From positions 806,001 to 870,000 of the forward strand of contig NZ_CP037423.1 of NCBI RefSeq assembly GCF_007754155.1: 64,000 nt of DNA, in the 5' to 3' direction. Under the pieces are notes generated by a model. The model was not told the DNA's origin and searched no databases. It worked only from the letters and a program-made list of their open reading frames with translations. The DNA is from Stieleria neptunia (lineage in GTDB: Bacteria; Planctomycetota; Planctomycetia; Pirellulales; Pirellulaceae). The translations under genes were made by a program, and so were the position numbers. Below, piece by piece: positions 25,650-58,267 of the stretch; the first letter of the stretch is position 1; every line of letters begins with the position of its first letter.

Positions 25650-25669
25650 CCCGATCGCCCCAATGGTTC

Positions 25670-25693
25670 GCGGCAGGGCGCGAGCCCTCCGGT
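25670..25693. repeat. Solo arm of repeat family F
   Basis: GCGGCAGGGCGCGAGCCCTC and onward matches the arm of the palindrome found in the TonB-receptor gene (57979-58002 and 58027-58050) and the intergenic copy near 33.5 kb. No second arm is visible close by. Confidence 0.7.
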
Positions 25694-33146: not shown

Positions 33147-33419
33147 GAAACAGCGTTCTTGTCGTCGGGGGTGTCGGGGTGGCGTGAACGGATGGGAAGG
33201 CGAACCACCAACGGGCATCGCATCGATTGGTCCATTTTTCGCTGCAACCAGTCTAACAACCGGCAAGCGATCGCGGACGCAGCTCCGCCGTTTGGAGATG
33301 GACGGCACGCAAAACGGACACAATCCTGACACGAACGAAGCGCAAGGGAGTGGATTGTCCACTTTTAGCGGAAGGGCGCGAGCGGGCTGTCGATTGAGTC
33401 GGAATCTGCTGATTCAATG

Positions 33420-33486
33420 GTGAGCCGCTGGCCGTCAGGCCTCGGGCAGCGCCGCAGTGCCCGGCCGCTGACGCGTCGCGGCTCAC
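33420..33486. repeat. Imperfect palindrome between sulfatase and recQ
   Basis: GTGAGCCGCTGGCCGTCAGG at the left end is the imperfect complement of the right end CCGCTGACGCGTCGCGGCTC. The centre is GGGCAGCGCCGCAGTGCCC. It appears to interrupt the arms of a family F copy: GCGGGCTGTCG before it pairs with CGACAGCCCGC after it. Confidence 0.7.
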
Positions 33487-33499
33487 AAAAACGACAGCC

Positions 33500-33658
33500 C
33501 GCGAGCCGTCCGGTCGCGTTTCAAAAACACCGTGAAAGACCGGAGGGCTCGCGCCCTGCCGCTAACAATCGACACCCCGCTTGACGTCAAATTAGATGGC
33601 ATGGGGCTGCGCCCTGCCGCTAAAACCTCATCAAACACAAGAAACCGATGCTTCACGC
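33500..33658. repeat. Intergenic copy of palindromic repeat family F
   Basis: Contains an inverted pair (CGCGAGCCGTCCGGTC at 33500-33515 and GACCGGAGGGCTCGCG at 33538-33553), then a second arm at 33605-33658 (GCGCCCTGCCGCTAAAACCT, then CATCAAACACAAG and TGCTTCAC). The second arm matches 58035-58084 inside the TonB receptor gene over about 50 bp. On the minus strand both copies keep an open frame encoding VKHxFxxVFDEVLAAGR. Confidence 0.8.
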
Positions 33659-55564: not shown

Positions 55565-58267
55565 TTAGTAGGTCAGGTCGGCACCGACGTAGAAGTTGAT
55601 TCCGGGTTGGTACACCGACACACCCGTCAGCGAGCGAAAATCGAGATGCTCGCGGAAGGTCTTGTCGGTGAAGTTTTCGATGCCGAACGCGAGCAACAGG
55701 TTATCATTGAAACGGGGACGGTACGTTCCACGAACATCGTAAACGGTGAAGCCGGGCGTTGCGTTTTCGAGCAAGCTTGTCGCGACGCGATCCTGGTCAT
55801 CAACAATCCGAGCCGCCAGTTCGACGTTCCAGTTCGGATCGGCTGTCGCATCCCGCAACCGAAAGCCGATGCGAGTTTCCAAGGGCGAAATGCCCGGCAA
55901 CGGTTCGGAATCTCCTCCCGTGATGCCACTGAAAAAACCGCGTGCTAAACCGGGGACCTTGGTCGACGCGGAGCCCTGTGCGCCGTTGGTCGTTGCAAAG
56001 TCGCCGTTTCGTGTGCGATCCCGTCCGTCGACATATCGCATCGTCACAAACGGGCTCAAGCGTTCTTGGGGAAGCAATTCCAGGAACGACTCGAAACCAG
56101 CCAACGTCGCAAGGCTCGTATTGACGTATCGCAAGCTGACCTGCTGGACGTCGCCGCTAGGCGGGCCGGCCGTGACTTGCGTGTTTTCAAAGGTGATGTA
56201 ATCGAATGCCCAGCCATAGAACCCGCGCGTTCCGCAGCGCAGGTAGTCGCCATCGAAGTCAAGGCTCAAATCTGCCTGCAGCATTTTCTCTTGCTTCAGG
56301 GTCGGATCCCCCGTGACATTGTTCAGGCCGTTCTGCAACAGCAACAGAAAGGGCTGGGCGGCATAGAGTTCTGTCAACGTCGGCGCACGTTGTCCGAATC
56401 CCAGCGAGGCAGACGTCGTCAAGGCTTCATTGTGTTCTCGCGTCAACGAGCCATACAGGCTCCACATCACCCGATCCGTCTGCGAAATCGACGTTCCTAC
56501 GATTTCTTCGTAGGAAGCGGGGAACGCGTCGAGCCCGACTTCGCGAAGTCCAGCGGGATCGGCCGTGATATCGGTCTGGACGTAGTCGACACGGGCACCG
56601 GCCTTGAACGTGTAGCAATCCAGTAGCCGCTCGTTGTACTCGGCAAACAGACCCGGGTTGGCGGCGAACGACTTGGGGATCGGCGAGTTGCGATCCGTCA
56701 CGGGGAACGGAAATCCGAGGGTGACCGCATCCGAAATCTCATTCAGTTCTTGTTTCACGAAACGAAGGTCGTGACCCACCGTCCAACTGACGTCGTCGCC
56801 TGCTTCGCCCCAAGTCCGACCGCGTCGATAACCGGTGGACATCGAATCCACATCCGTGAAACCGATGTATCGAATTCGATTGAGAAAGGGGAATTGCGGA
56901 CGTTTGGCGATGTTCTGTGCGTTGCCTTCGAAACGCGTGCGGTTGTACCAGACTTCGGTCTCAACCCGATCACCGATCTCAGGATTCGCATCGATGTAGG
57001 CGACCTCGTATCCATCGGTCACCAGGTAATCGATGTCGAACACATAGCCTGGAAATTCGACATCCGTCTGGTCCAGACGCAGCAACGAGAACTCGATGGA
57101 TCGGTCGTCACCTAAATCGCGTCCCAGCGCGACGGTAAACTCCCGCGATTCATAGCTCGACGGAACACTGCTTCCGTCGCCGTCTTCGTAATCGCTGCCG
57201 TAACGATGCGAATAATTGCCGCGCATTCCCCAATCTTCACCGCCGGCCCACAGGCTTTGCTGGGCGAGCCACTGATTGCCGTTGCTTTGGTGATCAAAAC
57301 TCGTCTGTCCGTGGAGTTCATTCCCGCCGGCAAAACGAGGCGATTGAAGCAATTCGAAATCAACGAAATGAAACCCGGGACCGTACACGCTGCTGTATGG
57401 CCCGGGGATGATGATCACGTCGTTGACCAGCCGTGAATCGATCTTGCTGAGCGCCGTGTCCAGATCTTCTCGCGCCGGCACCCAGTGTGATCCCGATGCC
57501 GCCAGTGCCCCGACGCGAGAGCTGCGCACACGGGTATCGTTCACAATCGGTGTCCGCCGCTGAGTCTTCACGCTCAGCCCGCCAGGCGATTTCCGCAGCA
57601 GACTGCCGAGATCCGTTGAAACCACCGACGATGCTTCCCGACCACGCACGATATCTGTACTGAAACTCGCGACACCCAGACGCGCTTGTCGCAAGACGCT
57701 GCGATCCAGGCTGGAACGACCAAAAAGTTGAGTCGTCAGGCTGGTCGCCGGATCGGTCTGCGCCACAGGTTCCTGAACCGAGACAACAGGTGTTCCGAAC
57801 GGCGTCGGCTGCAACATCGTCGTCTGGCGAAGTGGAGACGTTTCACGGCGAAACCGATCCGCTTCCCGATCCAGATCATCGTTCGGAATGGCGAAACGAA
57901 TCGCGTCAGCCGACGGAGCTTCGCCCACGTTGTCTGGCCCGAGCTCTCGGCCGGAAAGGAAACGCTGTGAAGCATTTTTTAGCGGTAGGGCGCGAGCCCT
58001 CCGGTGTTTTGGTAACGATGGTGAACCGGAGGGCTTGCGCCCTGCCGCTAAAACCTCGTCAAACACAGGGGAAAAATGCTTCACAGTGTTGTCGGAAAGG
58101 GTCGCCGACACCCCCGGATTCTCATCCGGATCCGACGCCACACGCGACGGGAGTTCGGTGACTTCTAAGAATTCTTGGGCGCAGACCGCATGCCCCGACG
58201 CAAACAAACCGATCCAAGTTGACGCGAGGATGCCCGTGCATAGGATTCGGCGGCAAGAAATCGACAC
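55565..58267 (-). CDS. TonB-dependent outer-membrane receptor with repeat-derived insertion
   Basis: 900 residues. Signal peptide about 1-30. Residues about 60-103 are encoded by the palindromic repeat (57961-58090) and are probably not part of the ancestral protein. The plug domain lies at about 215-320 (SSVVSTDLGSLLRKSPGGLS and VNDVIIIPGPYSSVYGPGF), followed by a large beta-barrel. The barrel's end (IRNFTDKTFREHLDFRSLTG-type with FYVGADLTY) has the final aromatic residue typical of outer-membrane proteins. The receptor brings a ligand (metal complex or oligosaccharide) through the outer membrane using TonB energy. It is convergent with the sialidase. Confidence 0.86.
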   Translation of the reverse strand: MSISCRRILCTGILASTWIGLFASGHAVCAQEFLEVTELPSRVASDPDENPGVSATLSDNTVKHFSPVFDEVLAAGRKPSGSPSLPKHRRARALPLKNASQRFLSGRELGPDNVGEAPSADAIRFAIPNDDLDREADRFRRETSPLRQTTMLQPTPFGTPVVSVQEPVAQTDPATSLTTQLFGRSSLDRSVLRQARLGVASFSTDIVRGREASSVVSTDLGSLLRKSPGGLSVKTQRRTPIVNDTRVRSSRVGALAASGSHWVPAREDLDTALSKIDSRLVNDVIIIPGPYSSVYGPGFHFVDFELLQSPRFAGGNELHGQTSFDHQSNGNQWLAQQSLWAGGEDWGMRGNYSHRYGSDYEDGDGSSVPSSYESREFTVALGRDLGDDRSIEFSLLRLDQTDVEFPGYVFDIDYLVTDGYEVAYIDANPEIGDRVETEVWYNRTRFEGNAQNIAKRPQFPFLNRIRYIGFTDVDSMSTGYRRGRTWGEAGDDVSWTVGHDLRFVKQELNEISDAVTLGFPFPVTDRNSPIPKSFAANPGLFAEYNERLLDCYTFKAGARVDYVQTDITADPAGLREVGLDAFPASYEEIVGTSISQTDRVMWSLYGSLTREHNEALTTSASLGFGQRAPTLTELYAAQPFLLLLQNGLNNVTGDPTLKQEKMLQADLSLDFDGDYLRCGTRGFYGWAFDYITFENTQVTAGPPSGDVQQVSLRYVNTSLATLAGFESFLELLPQERLSPFVTMRYVDGRDRTRNGDFATTNGAQGSASTKVPGLARGFFSGITGGDSEPLPGISPLETRIGFRLRDATADPNWNVELAARIVDDQDRVATSLLENATPGFTVYDVRGTYRPRFNDNLLLAFGIENFTDKTFREHLDFRSLTGVSVYQPGINFYVGADLTY
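57961..58090. repeat. In-frame copy of palindromic repeat family F inside TonB receptor gene
   Basis: Ends AACGCTGTGAAGCATTTTT and AAAAATGCTTCACAGTGTT pair at 18 of 19. Inside, AGCGGTAGGGCGCGAGCCCT pairs with AGGGCTTGCGCCCTGCCGCT; the right arm has about 18 unpaired extra bases (58053-58071). The 50 bases at 58035-58084 match intergenic DNA at 33608-33657. Confidence 0.85.

Follow-up and report, generated by a model that had tools for sequence, protein, structure and literature searches.

A palindromic repeat carried in frame by Stieleria proteins, probably a non-autonomous MITE with IS4-like ends

Rickettsia palindromic elements (RPEs) are palindromic repeats of ∼150 bp that occur outside genes but also within unrelated proteins, where they are read in frame (PMC10969869). 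Three other described systems come close to the locus reported here: bacterial MITEs such as ERIC, Nezha and C. burnetii QMITE1 (PMC3733652 and PMC10969869), the GTAG-type REPs and REPINs (PMC3733652), and the IS4 family of insertion sequences (ISs). REPs have been reported from Planctomycetes, and the same paper describes REPs inside genes (PMC3733652). Broad literature queries gave no element of the present kind for planctomycetes among the matches listed, of which PMC3733652 alone proved relevant.

The locus is a palindrome within a TonB-dependent receptor gene of Stieleria neptunia. It resembles RPEs, as described in PMC10969869, in being found outside genes and in frame in unrelated proteins, namely the receptor, a TPR-like secreted protein, a PSCyt1/2 protein, a FAD oxidoreductase and an O-antigen ligase. 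It differs from them in its clear terminal repeats, its 9-bp target duplication and its candidate parent transposase, and also in using more than one frame, with no constrained peptide seen. Like bacterial MITEs it is short and non-coding, has terminal inverted repeats, duplicates its target and shares its ends with a full IS. Unlike them, it has a REP-like inverted pair as its interior, the element and its duplication add up to a multiple of three, and its parent was found only outside the host genus. Compared with GTAG REPs and REPINs, the core AGCGG(T/C)AGGGCGCGAGCCCTCCGGT is likewise present in inverted pairs, also without the ends. However, the core is here embedded in a MITE that has ends of its own, the tag reads GTAG or GCAG, and no RAYT link was found in 30 of 90 PF01797 loci.

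A preliminary description of this DNA held that the palindrome behaves as RPEs do. This holds insofar as several unrelated proteins carry it in frame. The view of it as a single-frame peptide-adding device is not supported: its ends are of IS4 type, its target is duplicated over 9 bp, hosts read it in differing frames, and the one shared insertion shows pN close to pS. The element works like an RPE; in its anatomy it is an IS4-type MITE with a REP-pair core. Judging from sequence comparison, we consider it very probably a non-autonomous MITE with 20-bp IS4-like ends, which an IS4-type transposase would move in trans and whose frame-neutral copies are tolerated in proteins.

The element and its copies in the host genome

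Coordinates given without a genome are positions in the window, the whole 64,000-nt stretch analysed, which belongs to the 10.98-Mb genome of S. neptunia (G000). The palindrome in the receptor gene was originally placed at 57961–58090 (130 bp). Its inverted repeats are real, but the unit is 132 bp long, at 57960–58091, and lies on the minus strand, that of the receptor frame, read in the stop-free element frame “-1”. It is flanked by two copies of a 9-bp target-site duplication, CCGGAAAGG on the left (57951–57959) and TCGGAAAGG on the right (58092–58100), which match at 8 of 9 positions. The left terminal inverted repeat occupies 57960–57979 (plus strand) and the right one 58072–58091 (minus strand); the family consensus is CAACGCTGTGAAGCATTTTT, and an IS4-like IS has the same ends. 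As detected, the outer inverted-repeat arms are 57961–57979 and 58072–58090 (19 nt, 95%), and the inner arms 57977–58005 and 58025–58053 (29 nt, 93%).

The centre of the element consists of two REP-like palindromes. One REP-like arm, TTTTAGCGGTAGGGCGCGAGCCCTCCGGT, is at 57977–58005 (plus strand), and the second, inverted, at 58025–58053 (minus strand); many genomes of the family have matches to the core. This inner pair accounts for the strong RNA folding of the element strand read in the receptor (-73.2 kcal/mol, z -10.3). A scan of the element against Rfam returned only hairpin-like microRNA models far under their gathering scores, the highest reaching 35.7 bits (E 3.4e-5) where the threshold is 97, and a distant-mode search of a plasmid collection gave no match.

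The core arm has four matches at ≤3 mismatches in the window, against 0 expected from shuffles; two of them are the element's own arms. Solo REP-like arms are present at 33539–33563 (minus strand, exact) and at 25669–25693 (plus strand, one mismatch), the latter already noted at 25670–25693. The intergenic match of ∼50 bp to the right arm, earlier given as 33608–33657, is the truncated right end of another copy at 33608–33656 (minus strand), whose terminal repeat has lost its outer end. As had been claimed, it can be read on the same strand and frame, giving VKHRFLVFDEVLAAGR from a GTG at 33656–33654 (by hand). At 33360–33563 the window also contains a longer palindrome whose interior differs (GGGCTGTCGATTGAGTCGG...); by eye it is like the interior of a 302-bp element at G000:4174932–4175233 (L153) that has these ends too.

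When the host genome was searched with a 127-bp probe, all 40 candidates scored, out of 487 at first look, were near-full-length copies; the candidates include core-only repeats, and 487 is thus not a total of whole elements. The end motif AACGCTGTGAAGCAT occurs 183 times in the whole genome at ≤1 mismatch, and the reversed-pattern control 0 times. We sampled 90 loci, the 30 best probe matches and 60 from the end-motif and other matches listed. Chosen in this way, the sample favours copies that have good ends and resemble the one in the window. It contained 72 two-ended copies, 44 of them 132 bp long, nine 133, six 131 and two 130 bp, with the other 11 between 111 and 323 bp.

The 9-bp flanks match at seven or more positions in 55 of the 72 copies (mean 7.17), compared with means of 1.9–3.7 when the flanks were slid by 1–4 bases as a control; the duplication is poor (≤6 matches) in 17. 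Divergence from the consensus has a median of 9 bases among the 44 copies of 132 bp, and is 12 in the receptor copy, so the family does not appear to be young. The foot of the stem reads GTAG or GCAG, with T in that column in 64% of these 44 copies. The repeat has features typical of MITEs: it is short, multi-copy, with a mode of 132 bp, too short for a transposase, and bearing terminal inverted repeats and a target duplication of constant length.

At L132 (G008:C359), L157 (G000:1675000–1678500) and L150 (G004:2446500–2450000), two unrelated ISs lie inside the REP-like core of repeats. From its ends, we take one of the two to be IS1380-like. The palindrome seems to serve as a landing site for other ISs.

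The receptor insertion and copies in other genes

The receptor frame (55565–58267, minus strand, GTG start, 900 aa) is open through the element, which agrees with the earlier claim of an unbroken reading frame. It carries PF00593 at residues 351–865. The element falls at residues ∼59–103 and encodes NTVKHFSPVFDEVLAAGRKPSGSPSLPKHRRARALPLKNASQR from residue 60; HFSPVFDEVLAAGR is a peptide within this insert. The ∼43 extra residues had been placed between signal peptide and plug. They do lie past the signal-peptide region, but Pfam found no plug domain in the receptor, and the plug is placed by eye.

Receptor orthologues from G010 and G008 pass directly from the signal peptide to the conserved part. 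The insert peptide was found in none of the 119 other relatives compared (P0004–P0122, the best of 445, some of them fragments), so the orthologue alignment proposed in the preliminary description shows relatives without the inserted residues. No clean DNA empty site was found at the receptor itself, where the nearest orthologue has 71–75% DNA identity on the two sides; for the copies in two other genes, sister species show a clean empty site. The segment could instead be ancestral in the receptor family and have been lost from its other members. We found nothing in favour of shared ancestry of this kind, and against it stand the absence from those 119 relatives and the presence of the element in unrelated genes and outside genes. 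Confinement to such receptor genes, which had been named as telling against a mobile element, is thus not what is seen, and the chance of shared ancestry is negligible. The earlier reading as a mobile element is borne out.

Whether the receptor insert is translated is a separate matter. The public receptor model has 787 aa and starts at residue 114, past the insert, and by codon usage the insert looks non-coding, with the residues just before and after it near zero. Both points would fit an insertion into a 5′ leader, with the start downstream and the insert untranslated. However, the longer frame is favoured by the 787-aa form, which begins MGEAPSADAIRF.. and in which no signal peptide is recognisable by eye. 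The residues before the insert correspond to the orthologue P0004/L038 in its signal peptide region (AQEFL.VTELPS), and the public model of the O-antigen ligase (P0243) includes its own insert. We therefore regard the leader reading as unlikely, while leaving it some weight, and infer that the receptor insert is translated.

Comparison with relatives demonstrates the insertion in the receptor and in four other proteins; for two of these four, the DNA of relatives shows a clean empty site. All five orthologue-backed copies are in signal peptides or poorly conserved linkers. In the TPR-like secreted protein, named by eye as no Pfam family was found in it, G000, G008 and G009 have the same insertion, whereas G004, G005, G006 and G003 are without it; the orthologues L353, L355 and L356 were left out of this comparison. 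At the DNA level G004 has a single CCGCTCGGG, and the three carriers have the 9-mer on both sides, with one change in the right copy of G008. In the PSCyt1/2 protein of G000 the insert lies inside the signal peptide (MNRRFATLL[..]LLAWLCCCGMSVAQ). The site is empty in the DNA of G004, G008 and G009, and the proteins of G006, G005 and G003 have no insert.

In the FAD oxidoreductase of G000 the insert separates the signal peptide from the domain, and PDV is present on both sides of it (..ESPDV[44 aa]PDVVVYG.. compared with ..SPDVVVYG.. at the protein level). In the O-antigen ligase of G004 the insert is 639 codons into the open stretch, at residues 585–628 of P0243, and is missing from P0244–P0246. 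The host's own O-antigen ligase, P0247, has an in-frame REP-like fragment, LAAGREPSGR, at residues 644–655, in the linker where the G004 orthologue has a whole MITE. This linker seems to accept repeats more than once. A sulfatase of G000 appears to gain a tail of ∼43 residues directly past its F5/8-type domain. At L286 (G000:7483450–7483581), a long frame that by eye is diacylglycerol-kinase-like ends in a copy and takes its stop from it (ATL*), since one phase of the terminal repeat contains a stop codon.

It had been asked whether other insertions keep the frame used in the receptor. In-frame hosts exist, but the element frame is -1 in the receptor, TPR-like and PSCyt1/2 proteins, +0 in the FAD oxidoreductase and O-antigen ligase (these five orthologue-backed), and +1 in the sulfatase.

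Orthologue-backed copies inside genes make up 4 of the 72 copies in G000. A composition-based gene finder called coding sequence on both sides of 6 of the 72, in frame at two and in differing frames at four; it is too weak for this use, having missed all four orthologue-backed cases. Viewed by eye, the four copies with differing frames may include real gene breaks, and many copies sit just upstream of a likely start. Twenty copies of G004, G008 and G009 were also viewed, but they were picked by long open frames or high scores and are uninformative on frequency.

A candidate parent and the distribution of the ends

The ends of the MITE are shared with an IS of autonomous type outside the host genus. 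This IS (L229), in G182 of another genus of the same family, is 1600 bp long and has flanks ccggcttcg / ccgccttcg and one long transposase frame of 517 codons from stop to stop; one of its ends departs from the 20-bp consensus at a single position, the other at none. The transposase matches PF01609 (DDE_Tnp_1) at 5.7e-15 (56.1 bits, cut-off 23). Its best NCBIfam model is NF033592 (IS4), and the DDE transposase and 9-bp duplication are likewise shared with the IS4 family; however, the score of 87.6 bits is under the cut-off of 115, so the parent belongs to a divergent IS4 subgroup. Homologues of this transposase lie between related ends in G187 (51%), G094 (33%) and G005 (29%). Checked by hand, the 9-bp duplication is 9/9 in G094 and 8/9 in G005; the G187 site is cut by a contig end. 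A further homologue in G063 (35% identical) has no such ends in its locus within 6 mismatches. Since the MITE and a 1600-bp IS4-like IS have their 20-bp ends in common, an IS4-type DDE transposase is probably the mover, acting in trans.

Close homologues of the parent transposase were not found in the four Stieleria carriers: the best hit in G000 (E 6e-4) is a different IS, G004 gave E 1e-3, and G008 and G009 had none at E ≤1e-3. The MITE therefore looks orphaned in Stieleria, and a missed parent and a lost parent would fit equally well. Several other candidates were rejected as parents: other PF01609 ISs of G000, G004, G008 and G009, for those of the listed copies whose loci were fetched; ISAs1-type ISs of G004, which have ends CACGACGATCGCACC and ∼10-bp duplications; and the ISs at L132, L157 and L150, which merely sit inside copies of the repeat.

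The element might alternatively be a REP or REPIN moved by a RAYT tyrosine transposase, with the outer repeats only part of it. Its core, an inverted pair, is like that of GTAG-type REPs, REPs are reported from Planctomycetes (PMC3733652), and G000 has 8 PF01797 matches. The 9-bp target duplications and IS4-type ends speak against a RAYT, as do elements with the same ends and quite different interiors. Moreover, nine genomes gave 90 PF01797 matches, and in the 30 whose loci were retrieved, 3 of the 8 of G000 among them, the core (≤3 mismatches) did not occur. We judge movement by a RAYT improbable, and the IS4-type MITE remains our preferred reading.

Among the 14 genomes of Stieleria, the element occurs in numbers in G000, G004, G008 and G009. 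Weak core matches, one or two per genome, were seen in G001, G002 and G012, and none in seven genomes; in G013 there are six exact ends but no element. Some match was found in 39 of 149 Pirellulaceae genomes (at most five candidates scored in each), mostly the inner REP-like pair, and a 132-bp copy is present outside the genus in G117. In G095, the REP-like pair forms regular rows with ∼100-bp spacing (C1:1085887–1086777 and 1090545–1091129).

The ends alone, as exact YAACGCTGTGAAGCA, occur in 40 of 241 genomes of the family and 14 of 68 genera; some of these 40 genomes have single sites, possibly by chance, and the reversed end, as a control, appeared once each in at least three genomes (G006, G108 and G178) among the matches listed. 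Examples of ends around different interiors are 168, 165, 177, 329 and 142 bp long, and 302 bp in the host genome.

Reading frames, selection and significance

The length of the element and that of its target duplication are both multiples of three (132+9=141 bp, or 47 codons), so a 132-bp insertion leaves the downstream frame intact. Stop-free phases are common as well: 109 of 264 (44 copies in six phases each, 41%), and three of six in the consensus. The frame of the shared TPR-like copy is stop-free in 38 of the 44 copies of 132 bp; an open frame is thus no sign of selection. In that shared insert, pN/pS per species pair were 0.057/0.055, 0.121/0.147 and 0.117/0.105, from small numbers of changes (8, 18 and 16). 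By comparison, the mature TPR-like protein has pN of 0.009–0.022 and pS of 0.20–0.29. The neighbouring signal peptide is also relaxed (pN 0.15–0.18).

These values bear on the idea that the element is a domesticated protein module whose peptide is retained as useful. The in-frame insertion is indeed intact in G000, G008 and G009, with no stop or indel. However, pN is close to pS in the shared copy while the mature protein is strongly constrained, hosts use different frames, and 38 of 44 copies are stop-free regardless. With pN near pS and several frames in the hosts, a conserved encoded peptide was not found, and we hold domestication to be very improbable. The added peptide is without shown function.

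The element instead looks like a tolerated passenger. An IS4-type DDE transposase would mobilise the MITE in trans, and a 132-bp copy would insert, duplicate 9 bp of target and add 47 codons. Copies landing in expendable parts of genes, such as signal peptides, linkers and C-termini, would be tolerated as ∼47 added residues, and damaging copies would be lost. The receptor copy, between signal peptide and plug, would be one such survivor. Special targeting seems unneeded; tolerated sites and loss of the rest would suffice.

A stronger proposal is that the size was shaped to be compatible with genes. Length plus 9-bp duplication would have been selected as a multiple of three with stop-free phases, the element would spread through coding sequence, and the basic stretch RRARALPLKNASQR would serve as n-region of an interrupted signal peptide. 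We consider this unlikely. Counted by hand among the matches listed, 11 of 22 paired exact-end elements had lengths that are multiples of three, against 7.3 expected. This excess does not convince, and the copies of any one genome cannot be treated as independent.

To our knowledge, it has so far not been explained how the palindromes inserted in Rickettsia proteins move, or why they are frequently in frame. With defined ends, a 9-bp duplication, empty sites, a candidate transposase and some carriers in culture, both questions become testable here. The arithmetic is simple: where element and duplication together make whole codons, a transposon can extend a protein, and an annotated start further downstream can conceal the extension. 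In several unrelated genes of a few planctomycetes, frame-neutral insertion, usually of exactly 47 codons, can thus lengthen the protein and not break it.
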